This document shows, one piece after another, positions 1 through 8,617 of a stretch of 8,617 nucleotides of DNA. The stretch covers positions 1 to 8,617 of the forward strand of contig DATKZS010000091.1 of NCBI GenBank assembly GCA_035527835.1. Direction: 5' to 3'. The translations under genes were made by a program, and so were the position numbers. The notes beneath the pieces were generated by a model that saw nothing but the letters and a program-made list of their open reading frames with translations, was not told the DNA's origin and did no database searches. Position 1 is the stretch's first letter. Each line of letters starts with the position of its first letter. The DNA comes from DATKZS01 sp035527835 [NCBI: bacterium]. Lineage in GTDB: Bacteria; RBG-13-61-14.

Positions 1-3000
1 CAATGGAGAAGACCACGGAGAAGCCGCCCTGGTACAGCACGTTGATGAGGTTGGAGTTGCGCACCCGGACCGTAACGTGAGTGGTGCTTCCCACCAGCAC
101 GTCCGTGAGCGGCTCGTAAACCTTTTCCAGATCGGCGGCCCTGCTGTTGACCGTGCCCACCGGCATGCTCAGGATGAAGCCCCGGATGGTGACCAGGTCG
201 CTGCCCAGGATGTAGCCGTCGGCGTCGAGGTCCTGCACGTCGGGGATGCCGCGCGGGAGGACCTTGTCGTAGCTCTGGGTTAATGACAGGACCTGGCTCT
301 GGAGGACGGCTTGGTCGGAACCCAGCACGTAGCCGTCACCGTCGCCCTCGCCCCAGTAGTAGCAGCCCGGGGTGTCCGGGAAGGCGGCAAGGTTGGGGCT
401 CGGGTCAAAGCTCCAGGGGTCGGTCTGGTTCCAGTACTCGTGGAAGTTAAAGTTGTTGTCCCTCCCGACGAGCGTCTCGAAGTTGGTGGCGCCGTCCGCC
501 GGGTCGAGCGGGTCCAAAGGCGTGGCCCCGCTCATATGCTCCACCTCGTAATTATCCGGGATATAGTCCCCATCACTGTCCCAGCTCAGCGGATCGGTAA
601 AATGCGTGGTAACCTCATCGCCGTCACTCAGCCCGTCGCCGTCGGTGTCGGGGTTGTTGGGATCGGTGCCGTGGGTCAGGATTTCGGCCCCGTCGTCAAG
701 GCCGTCGGAATCGGTGTCAGGTAGCAGCGGATCAGTGCCATAGGCCAGGACCTCGTCCCCGTCCGTGAGGCCGTCGCCGTCGGTGTCGGGGAGGAGCGGG
801 TCAGTGCCGTAGGTCATGACCTCGTCGCCGTCGGTGAGGCCGTCAGCGTCGGTGTCGGGGTTGCAGTGGCCGGGATCGTCCTGGTTGATGAGTCCGTCAC
901 CATCGTCGTCCTCCAATCCGTCCCGGATGCCGTCGTTGTCCGTGTCATAATTCAGCGGCTCCGTGCACGACCCGGTCTCCTTGGTGTCCGTCATCCCGTC
1001 GCCGTCGGCGTCGCGGCCGATGCGGGCGAAATAGACATCATACCAGACCCCGTTCACATCATTGTTATAGTCCTCGGCCCAGGACAGGCCGAACTCGGAA
1101 CCGTTCCAGCAGATTGACGGATAGATGCTGTTGCTCGGGTTGTCGGTGAGACGGAGGTCCGCGGCCATTTTATCTCCCGTGGGAGAGAGCAAGTTGAAAT
1201 AAATATCCCTGGGATCACCGGGATCAGCGACATCGTCCATCCAAGAGAACCCATAATAATAACCGGCCCAGGCCAGGACCGGATAGAGGCTCGTATTGGA
1301 GGCATTGTTGACGTCAATCACACCGGATGAAGCATGGTCTGGTGAAGAGATGCGTGATAAATAAATGTTCACGTCCCAGTCAGGGCTCGATCCGGTCGAG
1401 GTGTACCAGGCCGCCATATATTCCGAGCCGTTCCAGACGAGATCCCCGAAACCAGCGAAACCATCGCTTGAAGCAGCAGGATAAAATGATTTATTCAAGA
1501 ACCCGTTCGCGGCCAATGTTTCCAGATAGATGTCAGATACCAATGGCGGGCCGCCGCAATTGCGATGAATCAGCCCATACCCGTTTCCGTTCCAGGCCAG
1601 GCGCGAATCGCTGTATCGGCAGGAAGTGCCGCTCGTGATGCGCACGCTGGGTCCAATCCTCTGGCCCTGGCTGGAGAGACGGGCGAAAAAAATATTATTG
1701 TTGTAGAAGTTGGGGCTCAAATTCCAGGTCAGTCCGAACTCCGATCCCGACCAGGTGATATCCCCTAGTATGCCTCCCGCGCCTGAGCCTGAGACATTAG
1801 CGCCAGGACCGATATTTTGGCCTTGCGCGGAGAGTCTGGTGAAATATATATCCTGGGGAACATGGGACCCTGACCAGGCCAGACCGTAAACGCTGTCCGC
1901 CCATATCAATGAAGGCCAGCGGTCCCAATAAGTGTCAAAGGTCACCCTCATGTCGCCGCCGATCTTATGGCCGTCTTGGCCGATGCGGGCGAAATAAAGC
2001 TCCCCTTCACAGGTCCATTCCGTGTCGCCGTGCAAGCAACCGGGCTCGTCCCTGAAATCCAGCCAGGCCAGGCCGAACTCGGAGCCGGCGCAGGCCAGCA
2101 TGGGCCCGTCGTAGCCCTCCTCGGCGCCGCTCACGATCAGGTTGCCGCTATCCAGCGGGATGAGCAGGTCCGGGACGATAGTGTCGTCGAGCGGGTTCGC
2201 GCCCCAGTTGACCTCGGGACTGTCGTTGATGCCGTCGCCGTCGGAATCGGGGTCGTTGGGGTCGGTGAGGAAGAGGCGCGGGAAGGGCGGGAAGCGGGGT
2301 ATGACCTGGACGTCGCCTGCCGCCGCGGTGGTGCCGGGGAGCATATCGGTCCCCAGCCAGATGGCCAGGTCATGGACCGAGTCGCCGGCCGCGGGCGTGG
2401 AGTCGAGCGTATTGTCGGGCCCGGGCCCGGCCACTACTCCCCGCTCGAAGCCGTCCCCGAGCCCGTCGCCGTCGCTGTCCGGCTTCAAGGGATCGGTCAG
2501 GGAGACATTGATCTCATACCCGTCATGAAGCCCGTCATCATCGGTGTCAACAAGACAGGGGTCGGTATCGAGCGCCAGTTCCTGGGTATTGGTCAGGCCG
2601 TCACCGTCGGGATCGGACATTGAATCGCCGGCGAGCGGATTCAGGCCGCAGGCCGCGTGCTCGTACTCCCAGCCGTCGCCCAGGCCGTCGCCGTCGGTGT
2701 CGGGGTTGTCCGGGTCCGTACCGAGGGCGGTCTCCTGGTAGCCGTAAAGGCCGTCGCCGTCTTGGTCCGAATCGAAAAGAAGTTGAATGTTGGGAGAACA
2801 AAAATTGATCGAAGGTTCCGGAACTGGCCCGGACCAGTCCAGGGGGTTGCCATAGGAGTCTCCGATAGCCCATTGAAAAATTGAACGGATGGACGGATAG
2901 TGATCGTCACACCAGACGTATCCCCATGAATATTCCGAAATAGTGGAATCATGGAAACTGAAATCAACCATCAGGCTGTCAGTCCCGTTATAGTAGAAGG

Positions 3001-5206
3001 GCTGATCGAAATCGAAAACGAACCAGCCCGCTTGTTCAACCAGGATATCATTCTGGTAATTCACCTCCCATCCCGAACCTTCCCACTCGATGTTGCCCGG
3101 CGCCACGTCGGTGTATTCCAGGTAAGGCGTATGTTTCATCCGGATCGTGAAATTATTAATAACGACATAGGGAGGGGTCCTGACGTTGACGGCAAGGGAA
3201 TATATGTTTCCGGCCGCGCCGATTTCCGCCGCCGGGTAAATCACCTGCTCCCGCATATTATCAATATCGGCTTCGAGAAGCAAACTTTCATATTCATCAG
3301 GATCTCCTATGGTCAATGAATGCGCGTCATCCGCCGGGTTCATGGGATCGCGGCCCCACTTCACCTCGGAGCCGTCCGGCTCTCCGCCCCCGTCCGAGTC
3401 CTGGCTCAGCGGATTCGAGCCATATACGTTAACCTCGTCGCCGTCGGTCACGCCGTCGTCGTCGCTGTCCTGGTCATAAGGATCGGTGAAATAGACCATG
3501 ACCTCGTCGTAATCATCAAGCCCGTCGGCGTCCGAATCCGGGTCCAGCGGCGAGCATCCGTTCTGGAACTCTTCCGCGTTGGTGAGCCCGTCGCCGTCCG
3601 CGTCGAGGCCGCCGTCATCAACCAGGGGATCAAAGCCCCATACCAGCTCCCAATAATCGTCCATGCCGTCGGAGTCGGAGTCGGGATCGCACGGGTTGGT
3701 GCCGGCGCCGAACTCGTCGTAATTGTTCAACACGTCGGAATCGTAATCGTCCGTGCCGTCGCTCAGGCCTGGTCCCATGCAGGGATGTCCAAGCTCCCAG
3801 GTGTCGGGCATGCCGTCGCCGTCGCTGTCGGCCAGGCACGGGTCCAACCCGTTCTGATACTCCCACAGGTTGGAGAGTGTATCTGAGTCGGAATCAATCG
3901 AACCGTCATCAACCAGCGGGTCAAGACAGCCCTTGTCTATCTCGAACCCATCGGGCATGCCGTCGCCGTCGCTGTCGGGGTTGGCGGGGTTAGTGCCGTA
4001 ACTGACTTCGTCCGTATCAGAAAGCACGTCATTGTCCGCGTCCACATCGGAGCTGAGCAGGATCCTGACCGTATCAATGCCATCCGTGGTGGCAACGTCA
4101 GGGAGGCCGGAGTGGTCGAAATCGGCGATGGCAAGGCCGGAGCCTTTCTGGTCGGCGAAAAAAGCAAAGGCGCTGGTGAACTGGCCATGGCCTTGGCCCA
4201 GGGCGATGGACAGCCCCGGCCCCGTGCTGTAAATGCTGTTGGCGGTCGAGATATCGAGAAGGCCGTCGCCGTTTAAGTCAGCGAGGCGGACCTGGAATGG
4301 TTTGTACCCCACCACGATACCCTTGAACGGAGTCATCCCGCCCAAGCCATCGCCCAGCAGCACCACCATATTATGCTGGCCGGAGGCCTCGGCCAGGACC
4401 GCGTCCAACTTGCCGTCGCCGTTAACGTCTCCCAGCGCCACGTCATTATTGGATGAGCCCGCGCTGATGACCCGGGCCGCGCCAAACCCGCCCGCGCCAT
4501 CGCCCGGAATCACCGAAACGGTGTTGCTCGTATAATTGGCCACGACTAGGTCAAGATCAGTGTCTCCGTCCATCAGCCCCGCATCCAACTCCATGCATTT
4601 CCCGCCCGCATCGTAGGCCACGACCGCGTTCAAGGTGCCACCTGCATTTCCGAGCAGTACTCCAAAAGCATTATCGCCCCGGCATACCGCTACGTCGGCC
4701 AGGCCATCCTTATTAAAGTCCCCGGAAACGATCCCCTCCGGATAGGTGCCGCAGGAAATATTGCCGACGCTGTTGAAGGTGCCGTTACCGTTCCCCCGAA
4801 GCAATCGGACATAGCCGGAGCTGCCACTCCCGCGATTGGAAAAAGCCAGGTCCGCAACCGTATCTCCAGCCAGATATAATATCGTCACATCACGGAACCG
4901 TGCCCCCGACCAGTTATAGCTTGCGGCCGAGAACGTCCCGTTTCCCAGGTTTGTAAGGATGGAATAGTATGTATTGTCGCGTGCGACCACGATGTCCTCC
5001 CACCCATCCTTGTTAAAGTCTCCATGAGCCATGCGGTAAGGCGTGGCGCCGATGGTATAGCTCTGCGCCGGGTCGAAGGCGATGGGGTCGGCGGAGAGGG
5101 CGAGGGCGGGAAGGAAAAGCAGAACCAGGAGCAGGATGGAAATCCTGGATAAAATGCGGAGCCGGGAAGCTGAAGACCTTGCCTGGTTGACAGTGAAAAA
5201 CCTCAT
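1..5206 (-). CDS. Giant secreted protein with two seven-repeat propellers, TSP3 arrays and dockerin-like pair (partial, C-terminus missing)
   Basis: I read this frame codon by codon from the ATG at 5206 to the left edge: 1735 codons, no stop, no frameshift. The start is supported by AAAGGAG six bases upstream and by an immediate signal peptide (Arg-rich n-region, core ISILLLVLLFLPALALSA, cleavage near residues 36-39). Approximate order by residue: FG-GAP propeller 55-386; TSP3 units 387-626; beta-sandwich-like module 627-811; TSP3 units 812-1010; seven-repeat second propeller 1011-1398; TSP3 units 1399-1573; dockerin-like loops 1615-1685; start of another beta-rich region to 1735. The motifs point to an exported, calcium-dependent adhesive or structural surface protein; this role is inferred and no enzyme motif was seen. 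The anchor or secretion signal may lie beyond the window. It follows the amidase gene on the same strand after 204 bases but seems to have its own promoter. Confidence 0.9.
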   Translation of the reverse strand, partial: MRFFTVNQARSSASRLRILSRISILLLVLLFLPALALSADPIAFDPAQSYTIGATPYRMAHGDFNKDGWEDIVVARDNTYYSILTNLGNGTFSAASYNWSGARFRDVTILYLAGDTVADLAFSNRGSGSSGYVRLLRGNGNGTFNSVGNISCGTYPEGIVSGDFNKDGLADVAVCRGDNAFGVLLGNAGGTLNAVVAYDAGGKCMELDAGLMDGDTDLDLVVANYTSNTVSVIPGDGAGGFGAARVISAGSSNNDVALGDVNGDGKLDAVLAEASGQHNMVVLLGDGLGGMTPFKGIVVGYKPFQVRLADLNGDGLLDISTANSIYSTGPGLSIALGQGHGQFTSAFAFFADQKGSGLAIADFDHSGLPDVATTDGIDTVRILLSSDVDADNDVLSDTDEVSYGTNPANPDSDGDGMPDGFEIDKGCLDPLVDDGSIDSDSDTLSNLWEYQNGLDPCLADSDGDGMPDTWELGHPCMGPGLSDGTDDYDSDVLNNYDEFGAGTNPCDPDSDSDGMDDYWELVWGFDPLVDDGGLDADGDGLTNAEEFQNGCSPLDPDSDADGLDDYDEVMVYFTDPYDQDSDDDGVTDGDEVNVYGSNPLSQDSDGGGEPDGSEVKWGRDPMNPADDAHSLTIGDPDEYESLLLEADIDNMREQVIYPAAEIGAAGNIYSLAVNVRTPPYVVINNFTIRMKHTPYLEYTDVAPGNIEWEGSGWEVNYQNDILVEQAGWFVFDFDQPFYYNGTDSLMVDFSFHDSTISEYSWGYVWCDDHYPSIRSIFQWAIGDSYGNPLDWSGPVPEPSINFCSPNIQLLFDSDQDGDGLYGYQETALGTDPDNPDTDGDGLGDGWEYEHAACGLNPLAGDSMSDPDGDGLTNTQELALDTDPCLVDTDDDGLHDGYEINVSLTDPLKPDSDGDGLGDGFERGVVAGPGPDNTLDSTPAAGDSVHDLAIWLGTDMLPGTTAAAGDVQVIPRFPPFPRLFLTDPNDPDSDGDGINDSPEVNWGANPLDDTIVPDLLIPLDSGNLIVSGAEEGYDGPMLACAGSEFGLAWLDFRDEPGCLHGDTEWTCEGELYFARIGQDGHKIGGDMRVTFDTYWDRWPSLIWADSVYGLAWSGSHVPQDIYFTRLSAQGQNIGPGANVSGSGAGGILGDITWSGSEFGLTWNLSPNFYNNNIFFARLSSQGQRIGPSVRITSGTSCRYSDSRLAWNGNGYGLIHRNCGGPPLVSDIYLETLAANGFLNKSFYPAASSDGFAGFGDLVWNGSEYMAAWYTSTGSSPDWDVNIYLSRISSPDHASSGVIDVNNASNTSLYPVLAWAGYYYGFSWMDDVADPGDPRDIYFNLLSPTGDKMAADLRLTDNPSNSIYPSICWNGSEFGLSWAEDYNNDVNGVWYDVYFARIGRDADGDGMTDTKETGSCTEPLNYDTDNDGIRDGLEDDDGDGLINQDDPGHCNPDTDADGLTDGDEVMTYGTDPLLPDTDGDGLTDGDEVLAYGTDPLLPDTDSDGLDDGAEILTHGTDPNNPDTDGDGLSDGDEVTTHFTDPLSWDSDGDYIPDNYEVEHMSGATPLDPLDPADGATNFETLVGRDNNFNFHEYWNQTDPWSFDPSPNLAAFPDTPGCYYWGEGDGDGYVLGSDQAVLQSQVLSLTQSYDKVLPRGIPDVQDLDADGYILGSDLVTIRGFILSMPVGTVNSRAADLEKVYEPLTDVLVGSTTHVTVRVRNSNLINVLYQGGFSVVFSI
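152..364 (-). other. Dockerin-like tandem EF-hand pair
   Basis: Two F-hand calcium loops occur in the order expected of a type I dockerin. The first is GEGDGDGYVLGSDQAVLQSQ, with ligands E1620, D1622, D1624 and D1631. The second is DLDADGYILGSDLVTIRGF, with D1659, D1661, D1663 and D1670. Each is followed by a short helix with hydrophobic residues at regular spacing (AVLQSQVL; VTIRGFIL). The loops are 39 residues apart, slightly more than in classic cellulosomal dockerins. Unlike most dockerins it is not at the extreme C-terminus, since at least 50 more residues follow, including a strand pattern THVTVRVRNSN...GGFSVVFSI. Whether it binds a cohesin is unknown. Confidence 0.68.
488..1012 (-). 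repeat. TSP3-type calcium-binding array 3 (about eight units)
   Basis: About eight units lie between residues 1399 and 1573: DADGDGMTDTKE, DTDNDGIRDGLE, DDDGDGLINQDD, DTDADGLTDGDE, DTDGDGLTDGDE, DTDSDGLDDGAE, DTDGDGLSDGDE and DSDGDYIPDNYE. The array starts directly at the end of the last propeller repeat, with no linker. The middle four units are the most regular part of the protein and form a near-exact 69-base tandem repeat, listed separately. Confidence 0.88.
581..856 (-). repeat. Four tandem 69-base (23-residue) units within TSP3 array 3
   Basis: Four consecutive units of exactly 23 codons run from 856 down to 581 on the minus strand. Each starts with D-T-D-x-D-G-L and ends in T-D-P-x-x plus one residue. 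Units one and two differ at only a few residues (DTDADGLTDGDE against DTDGDGLTDGDE, then YGTDPLLP in both). The third and fourth have diverged further (HGTDPNNP, HFTDPLSW). This looks like recent duplication inside the coding sequence. Confidence 0.8.
1013..2176 (-). other. Second seven-repeat region, W-x-G-S-E-F-G-L-x-W type, probable beta-propeller
   Basis: Seven repeats of about 55 residues cover residues 1011-1398. Each has a core like W-x-G-S-E-F-G-L-x-W, then D-I/V-Y-F-x-R-L/I, then G-x-x-I-G-x-x-x-R-V/I-T. Examples are AGSEFGLAWLD, SGSEFGLTWN, NGNGYGLIHR, NGSEYMAAWY, AGYYYGFSWMDD and NGSEFGLSWAED. The first core Gly is near residue 1041 and the last near 1369, about 55 residues apart per repeat. 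The last repeat ends at DVYFARIGRD and lacks its final strand. A strand of that type (GNLIVSGAEEG) precedes the first repeat, as expected for strand-swapped closure of a seven-bladed propeller. Fold and closure are inferred; no family name is assigned. Confidence 0.7.
2177..2773 (-). repeat. TSP3-type calcium-binding array 2 (about six units, with an irregular insert)
   Basis: Six units are visible between residues 812 and 1010: DSDQDGDGLYG, DTDGDGLGDGWE, DPDGDGLTNTQE, DTDDDGLHDGYE, DSDGDGLGDGFE and DSDGDGINDSPE. Between the fifth and sixth there is a stretch of about 60 residues without the motif (near 2250-2440), rich in Gly, Ala and Pro and containing DLAIWLGTDMLPG and RFPPFPRLFL. This may be a flexible loop or a small inserted element. 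The array joins the sandwich-like module to the second propeller. Confidence 0.82.
2774..3328 (-). other. Beta-sandwich-like module inside the giant protein
   Basis: Residues 627-811 have no Asp-rich repeats and read as alternating strands rich in aromatic residues. Landmarks are REQVIYPAAEIGAAG, VINNFTIRMKHTPYLEY, IEWEGSGWEVNYQ and FYYNGTDSLMVDFSFHDS. I recall a similar pattern (IYPA-x-E-x-G, TIRMKHT, WE-x-SGW, PF-x-YNGT-x-x-LMVDFSF) as a recurrent module in large extracellular bacterial proteins, but I cannot attach a family name. The local codon mix is more AT-rich than in the flanking Asp arrays. It sits exactly between two TSP3 arrays, as expected of a head module carried on a stalk. Function unknown; ligand binding is a guess. 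Confidence 0.6.
3329..4048 (-). repeat. TSP3-type calcium-binding array 1 (about ten units)
   Basis: About ten Asp-rich units of the form D-x-D-x-D-G-x-x-D-x-x-E cover residues 387-626. Two unit types alternate in the first part: DSDGDGMPDxWE-like units ending in a G-x-DP turn, and DxDxDxLxN-type units followed by E-Y/F-Q-N-G. Cysteines recur at unit ends (KGCLDP, LDPCLAD, NPCDPD, NGCSPLD), as in thrombospondin type 3 repeats, where they can form disulfides. Such arrays fold around many calcium ions and act as stiff stalks; here the array joins the first propeller to the sandwich-like module. Confidence 0.85.
4049..5044 (-). other. FG-GAP / VCBS-type seven-bladed beta-propeller region
   Basis: Seven repeats of about 50 residues carry the FG-GAP signature, with calcium-loop cores such as GDFNKDGWEDIVVA, GDFNKDGLADVAV, GDVNGDGKLDAVLA, ADLNGDGLLDI and ADFDHSGLPDVA. 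The first loop is near residue 63 and the seventh near residue 362, a mean spacing of about 50 residues. Seven repeats are enough for one closed integrin-type propeller. The second repeat (LAGDTVADLAF) has lost most Asp/Asn ligands and the fourth (DGDTDLDLVV) is atypical, so perhaps five of the seven blades bind calcium. In this family such heads usually bind protein or carbohydrate partners; the ligand here is unknown. Confidence 0.88.
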
Positions 5207-5410: not shown

Positions 5411-7435
5411 TTATTCGTGGGCCAGGGTGAGTTGGGGATAGGAGTCGAGGTAGGAGATGATGCCGGAGGCGATGGAGGAGGCGGCGGCCTGCTGGTAGTC
5501 GGAGGAGCGGAGGCGCTTTTCCTCTTTTTTGTTGCTGATGAAGGAGACTTCGACCAGGGCGCAGGGCATGGTGGCGCCGGTAAGGACCCAGAACGGGGCT
5601 TTTTTCACGCCATGGTCGGCGACGCCGTAACCCTTGTTCAACTCCTTGACCAGGGACCTTTGCAGGGTGCGGGCCAGCGGCACCGAGTCCTCCACCTTGC
5701 TGGCGGTGATGAGGTCGGCCAGGATTTTGTTGGTCACGTCGCGGGTGTCGGCCATCTCCTCTTCCCGGGCGAAGTTCTCCTTGGCCGCGAGCCGCAGCGA
5801 GGCGTGGTCCGTGGTGTTGTCCAGGTAATAGGTCTCCGCGCCGTTGGCGTCGCGGTTGGTGGAAGCGTTGCAATGGATGGAGACGAAGAGGTCGGCGTTC
5901 ATGGTATTGGCCATGGCGGTGCGCTCGACCAGAGTGAGGTAGCGGTCGTCCTTCCTGGTGAGCACGACCTGGAGGTCCGGCCGGCGCCGCTCCAGCTCGC
6001 GCTTCACCTTGTGCGCAATGGCCAGCGTGATGTCCTTCTCCTTCAGCCCCGACGGACCCACGGCCCCGGGATCGCGCCCGCCGTGGCCCGCGTCAATCAC
6101 CACCAGGGTCTTTTTCTTCCCGGCCTGGAGCGCCGGCTTTTTCGCGATCTGGTCCGTTCCCGGCTTCGTCGTCTTTTTAGCTTCTTCCCTCGCTCCTCGC
6201 TCCCCGCCCCTCGCTTCTCCTTTCCCCGGCTCGCCGTACACGTCAATGACGTAGCGGAAGTTGTCGCCGGCCATGGGGAAGGCGTTGAAGTGGTCAATGC
6301 GCTCGATGTCGAGGACGACGCGGGTCACGAAGGGCTCGTACTGTCCGGCGCGGGCCTTTTTGAGCAGGCCGTCGCCGATGGGCAGGGTGTAGCAGCCGGG
6401 CTCGGGCGTGCCCTGCTTCATCGAGCTCGCGATCACGGCGCCCTGGAAATCAATATAGAGGCGGGGCGGGGTGCCGAGCTCGGGGTCGGGCTTCAACAGG
6501 TGCGGCGGATCGTAGGGGACCTCGCGGTCCAGCTCGACCACCACGCGGGTGTAGTCCTGGTTGGACCAGTAGCGCAGGTCGAGGAGATGGGCCACGGGCG
6601 CGGACGGGGCGGGCGGAGACGCGGGTGGGGGCACCCGCGCCCCCTCTGGATCGCCTGCAACGGGTGCGGCATCGAGGAGAGGGGTCGCCGGCCGGAGGCC
6701 GCCTCCCAGGTTCGATGGCGGCACATCCTCTTCAATGATGGCGGGGTTTTCCGGGACGGGCGCGGGGGCCGGGGCGGGGGCCGCGATCTCGCCTGCTTGC
6801 AGGTCCATGACCGGGACCGGCGCTCCGGGAGTGGGCTGACCTTTCACTTCCTCATTTTTCTCTTCCGCGCCGGCATTTTTGGCAGCCAGGGCGGGCGCGG
6901 GCACGGCGCCGAGGTCGGGGTTTTGGGCGAGGTCGGAGAGGCGCTGTCGGGCCTTTTGCGCCATGTCGCCGCTCCTGAACCCGGCGGCCTTCTGGAAGGA
7001 CTGGATTGCCGGGCCGCGCTCGCCCTTGATGAGGTGGATCTCGCCGCAATAGTATTGCGCGTCGTCGGCCAGGGTGCTCTCGGGATGGTCGCGGCCGAGC
7101 CGCTCATAAGCGATGAGCGCGCGGTCAAGGTCAGCGGGATCAAAGGCCGCCTTGAAGGCCTGCATTCCGAGCACGCCCACCATGAACAGAGCGTCGTCCG
7201 CCTTGTGGCAGCCCGCGAACCGATCGGCGACCGCCTGGAACTCAGCCATCAGCGCGCGGCTCTGCTTTGCGGAAAGCGGGCCTTGCCTGGTCAGCGCGTA
7301 ATATTGATCAGCGGCGGCTTTGTAGGATGCTTCGCAACGGGAGGGCTCGGCGCGGGCGGGTCTTGTCCATGGCACCGTAATAAGGGCCACAAGGATCAGG
7401 AGAGCAACAATCCTTTCGCGCATCATCATCCGCAT
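5411..7435 (-). CDS. N-acetylmuramoyl-L-alanine amidase with TPR-like, AMIN and Amidase_3 domains
   Basis: The product (674 residues) is a zinc amidase that cuts the bond between N-acetylmuramic acid and the stem peptide in periplasmic peptidoglycan. A signal peptide (RERIVALLILVALITV, cleavage after ARA at residue 29) is followed by a helical TPR-like region (about 30-165; AIQSFQKAAGF), a long Pro/Ala linker, an AMIN domain (about 282-401) and a C-terminal Amidase_3 domain (about 443-665). The catalytic set is complete: H451 in DAGHGGRDPGA, E466 in GLKEKD, H521 in FVSIHCNAS and E629 in VEVSFISN. AmiC proteins are about 420 residues, so the TPR-like part and linker are extra; they may bind a regulator. 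I chose ATG 7435; ATGs at 7429, 7426 and 7423 are nearly as good, and none has a strong ribosome binding site. The frame extends to a TTG at 7576 but would cross the divergent promoters. The stop is TAA at 5411-5413. Confidence 0.93.
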   Translation of the reverse strand: MRMMMRERIVALLILVALITVPWTRPARAEPSRCEASYKAAADQYYALTRQGPLSAKQSRALMAEFQAVADRFAGCHKADDALFMVGVLGMQAFKAAFDPADLDRALIAYERLGRDHPESTLADDAQYYCGEIHLIKGERGPAIQSFQKAAGFRSGDMAQKARQRLSDLAQNPDLGAVPAPALAAKNAGAEEKNEEVKGQPTPGAPVPVMDLQAGEIAAPAPAPAPVPENPAIIEEDVPPSNLGGGLRPATPLLDAAPVAGDPEGARVPPPASPPAPSAPVAHLLDLRYWSNQDYTRVVVELDREVPYDPPHLLKPDPELGTPPRLYIDFQGAVIASSMKQGTPEPGCYTLPIGDGLLKKARAGQYEPFVTRVVLDIERIDHFNAFPMAGDNFRYVIDVYGEPGKGEARGGERGAREEAKKTTKPGTDQIAKKPALQAGKKKTLVVIDAGHGGRDPGAVGPSGLKEKDITLAIAHKVKRELERRRPDLQVVLTRKDDRYLTLVERTAMANTMNADLFVSIHCNASTNRDANGAETYYLDNTTDHASLRLAAKENFAREEEMADTRDVTNKILADLITASKVEDSVPLARTLQRSLVKELNKGYGVADHGVKKAPFWVLTGATMPCALVEVSFISNKKEEKRLRSSDYQQAAASSIASGIISYLDSYPQLTLAHE
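6620..6645. repeat. GC-rich palindromic repeat, copy 2 (inside the amidase gene)
   Basis: CGCGGGTG (6620-6627) and CACCCGCG (6632-6639) are perfect 8-base arms around GGGG, followed by five C and a T, as in copy 1. It lies in frame in the amidase's proline-rich linker, around residues 264-272, and is read as GARVPPPAS. It avoids both the TPR-like and AMIN domains, as expected if an element inserted where the protein tolerates it. Confidence 0.75.
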
Positions 7436-7526
7436 CCGCTTGTTCCGCTTTTCCGCGTCCGCAACAGGTCCAGTCGATAGTACATAGTTTAACCCGAAAA
7501 CCGTGTGGTTTGCAAGGGGCTGAGGT

Positions 7527-7532
7527 ATTATA
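7527..7532 (-). promoter_or_regulatory. Possible -10 box for the amidase gene
   Basis: The minus strand reads TATAAT here, a full -10 match, but no recognisable -35 hexamer sits 16-18 bases upstream (TTGCAA at 7545-7550 is too close). If used, transcription would start near 7520 with a leader of about 85 bases. Its spacer would overlap the -35 box of the plus-strand promoter, so the two genes might compete for polymerase. Confidence 0.35.
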
Positions 7533-7539
7533 ATTATTA

Positions 7540-7567
7540 TTGACTTGCAATGCGGCTCTGCTATAAT
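7540..7567 (+). promoter_or_regulatory. Strong sigma-70-type promoter for the right-hand TSP3 protein
   Basis: TTGACT (7540-7545), a 16-base spacer and TATAAT (7562-7567) match the consensus at eleven of twelve bases. An AT-rich tract (7526-7539) lies just upstream and resembles an UP element. Transcription should start near 7574, about 98 bases before the ATG at 7672. Confidence 0.8.
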
Positions 7568-7658
7568 GCGCGCCAAGATCAGGGGCAGAGAAGCGCAATT
7601 TGATGCCCTATTCGCCTCGATCCCTTGACCGGTTGCAAAAGGTGGACATTTCTATCCC

Positions 7659-7665
7659 AAGGAGG
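7659..7665 (+). promoter_or_regulatory. Ribosome binding site of the right-hand TSP3 protein
   Basis: AAGGAGG lies six bases upstream of the ATG at 7672, an excellent Shine-Dalgarno match that decides the start. Confidence 0.85.
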
Positions 7666-7671
7666 GAGCAG

Positions 7672-8617
7672 ATGAAAAGGGCGAAGCTTCTGGTGGCGGT
7701 TTGGCTTGTGGTTCTTCCGGCCTTGTTTTTCCCTTCCCTATTATGCGCGCAAGATGCGGACGGCGACGGCGTCTCCGACCGCAACGACAACTGCGTAGGC
7801 GTCTTGAACCTCCTGCAGGAGGACCTGGAATGGAGCACCCAGGCCGGGACCCTGGTCCTGTATGACGATTCCCTGGCCATCCATAGCTGGGCTACCCCGC
7901 CCCTGGAAACGGGAAGCACCGTACACGACGGCGACACCGCGATGAAGATCATCGGCAATAATCTCATCACGGAAATCGCGCCCGACCTCGGCCAGAGCGG
8001 GCCCCAGCGATACCTCCGCTTCTGGATCTACCTCACCTCCCCCACCGCGGACCTGGCCCTGCAGATGAACTGCGGCGACGGCGAGGGCTGGGACCACAAG
8101 TGGGGCTTCTCCGGCAACGGGACCTGGGAAGGAGAGGCCTGGGCCTTCAACGGCCGCGATTACAACCTGCCCGTGGGCCAGTGGCTCCCGATCATGCTTG
8201 ACATCCAGGGCGCCCTCTCCTGCGACAACGGCAAAGCCATCTACGGCATCGGCTGGGACGTGCTCCCGGGCAATACGGCCTTCGTGGACTCCGCGGCCTT
8301 CTACTCCACCAGACCCAGTGGCGACGTCTGCGATTTCACCAGCGACTTTGACGGCGACGGGCTGAGCGACGCGCAGGAACTCGGCTTTTCCTACACCGAT
8401 CCGGCCGATCCCGACTCCGACGACGACGGCCTCTCCGACGGGGACGAGGTCAATACCTGGTTGACTGATCCCAATGACCCGGACTCGGACGGCGATAATT
8501 TAAGCGACGGCAACGAGGTCAATTACTTCGGCACTGACCCTAACCTGCCGGATGCTGACACCGACTCCGACGGCCTGCCTGACGTGGTGGAGACGGATAC
8601 CGGACTATATGTGGACT
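7672..8617 (+). CDS. Secreted TSP3-repeat protein with an N-terminal jelly-roll-like domain (partial, C-terminus missing)
   Basis: The frame is open from ATG 7672 to the window edge (315 codons), preceded by a strong promoter and ribosome binding site. Residues 1-26 form a Sec signal peptide (LLVAVWLVVLPALFF, cleavage after CA). The cysteine in SLLCAQ does not fit a lipobox because the residue before it is Leu. A TSP3-type unit follows at once (DADGDGVSDRNDNC, residues 28-41). Residues about 48-216 form a strand-rich domain with YLRFWIYLTS, DHKWGFSGN, LPVGQWLPIMLDI and a last strand FVDSAAFYS; this resembles jelly-roll or carbohydrate-binding-module folds, by inference only. A TSP3 array resumes at residue 225 (DFDGDGLSDAQE, DSDDDGLSDGDE, DSDGDNLSDGNE) and continues off the edge. 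It is probably a surface or extracellular calcium-binding protein of the same broad class as the left-hand giant. Confidence 0.88.
   Translation, partial: MKRAKLLVAVWLVVLPALFFPSLLCAQDADGDGVSDRNDNCVGVLNLLQEDLEWSTQAGTLVLYDDSLAIHSWATPPLETGSTVHDGDTAMKIIGNNLITEIAPDLGQSGPQRYLRFWIYLTSPTADLALQMNCGDGEGWDHKWGFSGNGTWEGEAWAFNGRDYNLPVGQWLPIMLDIQGALSCDNGKAIYGIGWDVLPGNTAFVDSAAFYSTRPSGDVCDFTSDFDGDGLSDAQELGFSYTDPADPDSDDDGLSDGDEVNTWLTDPNDPDSDGDNLSDGNEVNYFGTDPNLPDADTDSDGLPDVVETDTGLYVD

Follow-up and report, generated by a model that had tools for sequence, protein, structure and literature searches.

The window, the whole 8,617-nucleotide stretch of DNA that was analysed, carries one open reading frame for a giant protein. 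The reading that we prefer, with evenly balanced confidence, is that this protein is a secreted, apparently non-catalytic, multi-headed client of a non-cellulosomal cohesin–dockerin system. We infer the docking from a dockerin-like EF-hand pair in the tail, which is coupled to the start of an Ig-like domain and recurs on peptidases in the same phylum, and from candidate cohesin-like partners in all three phylum genomes searched.

Layout of the giant protein

The frame opens with an ATG at 5206, preceded by a GAAAGGAGCG stretch, and runs stop-free down to position 2 at the window edge. Residues 1–39 read like a putative signal peptide, and they are followed by an FG-GAP propeller, TSP3, a middle head, TSP3, a second propeller, TSP3, the EF pair and the Ig-like start. 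The features, all on the minus strand, are given below with the evidence on which each rests.

2..5206, minus strand: giant secreted protein ORF, 1735 residues seen and open at the left edge of the window (ORF listing and translation)
5090..5206, minus strand: signal-peptide-like N-terminal segment, residues ~1–39 (judged by eye from the sequence)
4049..5044, minus strand: FG-GAP beta-propeller with seven blade cores, residues 55–386 (Pfam FG-GAP_3; core spacing)
3317..4042, minus strand: TSP3 stalk 1, residues 389–630, 10 motifs (TSP3_bac; regular expression)
2777..3274, minus strand: beta-rich middle head, residues 645–810 (relatives in genomes G001, G076 and G143; profile; strands in the predicted model)
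2174..2773, minus strand: TSP3 stalk 2, residues 812–1011, 5 motifs and a non-TSP3 insert at ~925–985 (TSP3_bac; regular expression)
1013..2161, minus strand: predicted seven-bladed propeller of the 'GSEFGLAW..DIYFARI' repeat type, residues 1016–1398 (CylK fold match; six-row alignment; profile)
443..1012, minus strand: TSP3 stalk 3, residues 1399–1588, 8 motifs (TSP3_bac, best stretch 1474–1496; regular expression)
158..364, minus strand: dockerin-like EF pair, residues 1615–1683, loops EGDGDGYVLGSD and DLDADGYILGSD (alignment with relatives; loop inspection)
2..127, minus strand: first part of an Ig-like domain that runs past the window edge, residues 1694–1735 (alignment with complete relatives; model of the relative L142)

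An initial annotation of the window had described one unbroken frame of at least 1735 codons with a head-stalk-head-stalk-head-stalk-dock plan, and the ORF, profile and fold evidence confirms this. It had also proposed a search for proteins of the same domain order; the exact order is absent from all other ORFs read, and the domain combination as a whole has no curated family match. The parts recur in shuffled form in L082, L083, L084, L108, L146 and L148. Within its phylum, the giant protein is one among several giants assembled from the same shuffled parts. By eye, a stretch resembling caspase or legumain, with the motifs HGG/HGGQ and DACYSG, can be seen in L082 (4768 residues) and L108 (4155 residues).

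The EF pair–Ig module and its candidate partners

Both EF loops in the window, residues 1620–1631 and 1659–1670, are 12 residues long and keep their acidic ligands. Acidic ligands at positions 1, 3, 5 and 12 are the rule for F-hand loops of type I dockerins, and these positions hold E, D, D and D in loop 1 and D, D, D and D in loop 2. The loops have DGY[VI]LGSD in common. The protein had been annotated as ending near a dockerin-like pair; the pair is real, but the chain continues from residue ~1694 into an Ig-like domain. The window tail shows 45% identity to the complete tail of L091 from G001.

Against a profile made with the window row omitted, the window module scores 74.1 bits, or 52.7 bits once its closest relative is dropped as well; shuffling the whole protein 500 times gives at most 5.0 bits (4.6 without the closest relative). 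Since the profile rows for the module, and likewise those for the second propeller and the middle head, came from searches begun with the giant protein, this is a test against chance composition and not a fully independent one. On its own, the window tail has no significant PDB match (the best is an EF-loop chain with an E-value of 0.53) and no Dockerin_1 or Big_1 match in Pfam.

The likeness to solved dockerins thus comes from the 19-row family profile, the window tail alone being not significant. The best PDB match of this profile is 8x3a (2.2e-10), an EF-loop chain deposited as 'Serine protease', and it is followed by the type I dockerin DocCel5 (3.1e-5), a ScaB adaptor chain (1.1e-4) and calmodulins from 0.05. 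Among the 19 rows, Pfam detects Dockerin_1 in four (best 1.7e-5) and, at E up to 1, Big_1 in two (best 2.3e-4). In a predicted model of L142 the EF part has three helices (40–50, 65–68 and 78–88) of moderate confidence, with 10-residue blocks mostly at pLDDT 57–74. The remainder of the L142 module, of which the window has the first part only, is predicted to adopt an Ig-like fold, as do Big_1 (invasin/intimin) domains. Intimin domains head its fold matches (Z 12.1, rmsd 2.1–2.2 Å over 96–97 residues), tied with all matches within 1 of that Z, for example a phage neck protein and a beta-galactosidase.

Symmetric duplication is a hallmark of dual-mode dockerins. Over 17 proteins, with kinship ignored, the two loops of a chain agree at 3.76 of 7 positions, versus 2.54 when loops are re-paired, and none of 20,000 shuffles attains the observed agreement; for the start of the helix after the loop, 134 of 20,000 shuffles do so in the same pairing test. 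Ten first-loop motif classes were listed, and for six representatives chosen by hand only one of the 720 possible pairings, the true one, attains the observed loop agreement. When the degenerate L091 is added to the six, 41 of 5040 pairings attain the observed value. Loop symmetry is slight in L092, L146, L150 and L091, which agree at 1, 2, 1 and 1 of 7 positions, respectively. The window loops carry LGSD/LGSD, and other phylum members carry GVPD and DGPD pairs. Such sharing of one motif would fit a symmetric dockerin that binds in two ways and has a partner of its own.

G001, G002 and G003 are the genomes searched of phylum RBG-13-61-14, which the available text of PMC11382960 describes as Candidatus Coxosiota, with three genomes of 3.65–4.74 Mb from freshwater and subsurface sediments. 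A five-row profile matches the module in all three (13, 11 and 5 matches, respectively, partial ones included), and the EF pair and the Ig-like domain together make up one recurring module. The 19-row profile, with hand-chosen rows and with scoring limited to 8 candidates in each genome, has matches in 14 of 386 relatives, namely the three phylum genomes and 11 of 383 others. Matches in those 11 are weak (best E-value 1.7e-5), and all but one cover one half or a short piece. The phylum of G143 gives weak matches in 4 of 124 genomes. None of the 35 genomes that lay behind 35 of the 46 loci first matched mainly via TSP3 stretches (judged by eye) has a match to the module profile, which did match the three phylum genomes elsewhere. 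Since single matches in G259 (5.4e-5) and G443 (6.2e-5) weakly span both halves, the fusion may also occur outside the phylum. Four matches in G001 lie at contig ends (C34, C96, C41 and C48), and the window also ends inside the module, as expected because repeated sequence breaks assemblies.

The module is C-terminal in L142, L091, L095 and L150, in the first three after a TSP3 stalk. It is N-terminal in L144, L145, L149, L151, L152, L153 and L090, internal in L146, and cut by a contig end or gap in L082, L084, L147 and L148. Five of the six module proteins scanned have a peptidase domain: C25 with a propeptide (L095), M6 with PKD repeats (L143), M74 (L144), S8 (L150) and C1 (L148). The sixth, L142, shows TSP3 only, and no glycosidase domain was found in the six. 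L143 also matches Sde0182_C, a C-terminal family of cellulose-binding proteins, at 74.8 bits against a cut-off of 27; this match falls where its PKD matches also lie.

As a separate observation made by eye, the tail Ig domain of L092, L093 and L143 (M6-peptidase-type) appears to be split by a PD40/TolB-like propeller insert; a Pfam PD40 match supports the insert in L143 only.

With the Pfam cohesin model, two domains are detected in G002, and G001 and G003 yield none. Searching with a profile of these two rows brings in a third G002 domain (2.8e-19) and single domains in G003 (1.3e-7) and G001 (6.8e-6), so that cohesin-like domains occur in all three phylum genomes: three in G002, including the two input rows, and one in each of the others. 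Two of the five pass the Pfam cut-off. When all five are combined in a profile, 9 of its 12 PDB matches are named as scaffolding, anchoring or cohesin proteins (best 2.6e-4). Cohesin-like domains compare with tail matches as 3 versus 11 in G002, 1 versus 5 in G003 and 1 versus 13 in G001.

In the five places found, in fragmented genomes, there is one cohesin-like domain per chain. In the chains read, it is followed by an EF-hand pair and later by an Ig-like stretch of the chain's own, and for this reason these chains may not be scaffolds; their domain content recalls an adaptor rather than a classical scaffoldin. The giant chain, for its part, had been proposed as a scaffold part. The evidence reverses this role, since no cohesin was found in it and its tail is of the kind borne by docked clients.

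Two of these loci showed further features. At L111 (G002), the ORF immediately upstream of the cohesin-like gene resembles an outer-membrane barrel protein by eye. L146 (G001), of 3149 residues, contains the end of a GLAW-type propeller, the cohesin-like domain, an EF pair, AGPDGVCDTSA-type repeats and an Ig-like stretch, besides its internal module copy.

The small number of recognisable cohesins, together with a module that sits at one end of unrelated cargo in the fashion of a sorting domain, could also be explained if the module were a sorting or retention signal for a secretion or anchoring machine and the giant protein a plain surface adhesin. We regard this as the most serious alternative, though a good deal less probable than docking: a module found at the N-terminus of several proteins, and in the interior of one, does not sit easily with a sorting signal, calcium ligands and loop symmetry are dockerin traits, and cohesin-like domains are present in all three genomes.

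The EF pair adjoins the Ig-like domain in 17 of the 19 aligned rows, those long enough to show both, although the rows were picked by a two-part profile. This close coupling would be natural if the two formed a rigid end cap, an intramolecular dyad that stabilises the chain and whose task is not docking, and EF pairs can indeed be purely structural. Symmetric motifs that are specific to each paralogue and lie in the second half of the loops are not expected of such a cap, and we think it improbable.

Heads, stalks and the proposed assembly

The claimed seven-repeat FG-GAP head is borne out by a Pfam search, which was one of the checks proposed at the outset and found both FG-GAP_3 and TSP3_bac in the giant protein. 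FG-GAP_3 matches in 5 stretches with an E-value of 2.9e-26 (92.3 bits against a cut-off of 26.9). Seven blade cores lie at residues ~62, 112, 162, 210, 259, 309 and 361, with a spacing of 48–52 residues, and self-similarity of this region peaks at 52 residues, exceeding 300 of 300 shuffles. Profile and spacing together indicate an FG-GAP propeller. A TcdB_toxin_midN match (0.024) was discarded; it is short, falls within the FG-GAP region and is under its cut-off.

The three claimed TSP3 stalks were likewise recovered. TSP3_bac matches in 14 stretches with an E-value of 2e-35 (120.7 bits against a cut-off of 25), which identifies the repeats as bacterial TSP3, and the 23 motifs, split 10, 5 and 8, were counted with a permissive regular expression of which Pfam supports 14 stretches. 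TSP3-type arrays are also found in the myxobacterial proteins that NCBIfam names CglD and MtsD. The giant protein differs from both in that it misses their curated equivalog cut-offs by far (109.7 of 400 and 63.5 of 800, respectively), and identity with either was rejected.

The middle head has relatives in G001 (L108, 42–45%), G076 and G143. The head is conserved: a profile from which the window was left out gives residues 650–813 a score of 116 bits, compared with 3.3 bits for the best of 500 shuffles. It has no family in Pfam or NCBIfam and no credible PDB relative by sequence. It had been described as sandwich-like: a conserved beta-rich head stands, but the 'sandwich' label is unproven because the strands are predicted with moderate confidence.

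Pizza proteins were considered as PDB relatives of the middle head and rejected as chance matches via repetition, with per-repeat E-values >60 in the three shown. The head matches nine places in the G143 genome, and one copy there (L110) sits in a protein that we judged by eye to be subtilase-like.

The second seven-repeat region was said to differ in kind from the first, with a propeller to be expected from structure prediction at about residues 1011–1398, and both points hold. The modelled residues 1016–1402 superimpose on the propeller of CylK, which is seven-bladed, with a Z-score of 39.9 and an rmsd of 3.0–3.5 Å over 348–356 residues, and a six-row alignment shows seven repeats in the paralogues. 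The fold search covered this propeller, taken from a model of residues 645–1402, and the Ig part of L142. Mean pLDDT of the former model is 60.5, with propeller blocks mostly at 60–89 and the stalk mostly <50. A profile built without the window gives 143 bits, the best of 500 shuffles 4.7 bits. Since periodicity within this single chain does not exceed that of 300 shuffles, the assignment rests on the paralogues and the predicted fold. No Pfam or NCBIfam family and no significant PDB sequence relative was found for the region.

Further fold matches are E. coli YncE (Z ~30), Photorhabdus lectins (Z 26–28) and WD40 proteins (~25–27), and the neighbours also include neuraminidases, glycoside hydrolases and polysaccharide lyases. 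That the giant protein is an enzyme with a catalytic, sialidase-, lyase- or CylK-like second propeller is suggested by the enzymes among these neighbours and by CylK itself, but is very improbable, given an identity to them of only 8–11%, a fold shared with lectins and WD40 proteins, and a region that lacks a curated enzyme family match in Pfam and NCBIfam.

In the preferred reading, as a docked client, the giant protein would be exported, and its TSP3 stretches would load calcium and serve as extended spacers. The three heads would bind outside ligands, which may be sugars, glycoproteins or the surfaces of neighbouring cells, and the tail would dock in a calcium-dependent manner into the cohesin-like domain of another surface or secreted protein. 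Tailed C25, C1, M6, S8 and M74 peptidases could dock likewise, bringing proteases and binding fibres into one assembly. The parts of this mechanism and their co-occurrence are what we observe. Of the calcium-stiffened, multi-ligand surface fibre put forward in the initial annotation, the head-and-stalk plan and the dockerin-like pair are retained, and stiffening, ligand binding and docking are what these parts would be expected to provide.

More tentatively, Ca. Coxosiota may possess a largely phylum-confined extracellular assembly, in which dockerin–Ig tails with at least three motifs (LGSD, GVPD and DGPD) dock proteases and long, non-catalytic multi-head fibres onto cohesin-like adaptors. 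If so, it would be a protease-and-adhesin counterpart of the cellulosome, with the giant protein as its grasping arm.

Neighbouring genes and known systems

Two further genes lie in the window.

5411..7576, minus strand: Amidase_3 cell-wall amidase with an AMIN-like part, the upstream neighbour (Pfam; AMIN just under the cut-off)
7540–8616, plus strand: second, divergent TSP3 protein, with an ATG at 7672 and running off the right edge

By E-value, the best matches of the amidase among 145 genomes are in G001 (58%), G003 (51%) and G002 (50%), and the next is in G110 (46%). This ranking places the window in the candidate phylum RBG-13-61-14, most likely in a relative of G001. Its N-terminus has a weak YbgF-like match. 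The homologue in G001 lies on contig C79, ~16 kb from the module protein L142 and not adjoining it. The second TSP3 gene is preceded by a sigma-70-like promoter at 7540–7567 (11 of 12 matches) and an AGGAGG-type site at ~7660.

Cohesins and dockerins outside cellulosomes have been reported from several phyla, with functions that, in the available texts, are proposed rather than tested. One close precedent is the 'planctosome' proposed for freshwater Planctomycetes, for which polypeptide degradation was suggested (PMC6461901). As far as the accessible part of that paper goes, the two systems have in common non-cellulosomal cohesin and dockerin modules, secreted peptidases and TSP3 in a large protein, but the planctosome belongs to another phylum, its peptidases are M12B and M14, its TSP3 repeats are in the cohesin-bearing anchor, and a dockerin–Ig unit is not described there. 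The cellulosome-like complex of Ca. Stygibacter (Cloacimonadota) likewise has peptidases of the C25 gingipain-like and S8 kinds that bear a dockerin at the C-terminus; in the portion of PMC8542988 available, its scaffoldin measures 3,755 aa and carries cohesins in tandem as well as CBMs, in contrast to the one cohesin-like domain in each chain at the five sites identified here. A giant ORF of Omnitrophota contains dockerins as well, and these were suggested to be adhesins, but it has nine non-cellulosomal dockerins, and a head-stalk plan is not given in the available text of PMC10066038.

With cellulosomal type I dockerins the window module shares two 12-residue EF loops with acidic ligands, and its family profile matches solved dockerins. 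It differs in being coupled to a downstream Ig-like domain, and the giant protein has no evident carbohydrate-active context. Among the literature matches listed, there is no recognised description of the EF pair–Ig unit.

Non-cellulosomal cohesin–dockerin precedents are thus already known from the planctosome, Ca. Stygibacter and Omnitrophota. The present sequences extend these to a further phylum and contribute a dockerin–Ig unit that can sit at the N- or the C-terminus, loop motifs that vary from paralogue to paralogue, and a long client with three heads in which no enzyme domain was recognised. One dockerin–Ig tail is found on five peptidase families and on giant, apparently non-catalytic fibres, in a phylum with few environmental genomes. 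Since candidate cohesin-like domains are present in all three genomes, partner and specificity are directly testable with short recombinant domains.
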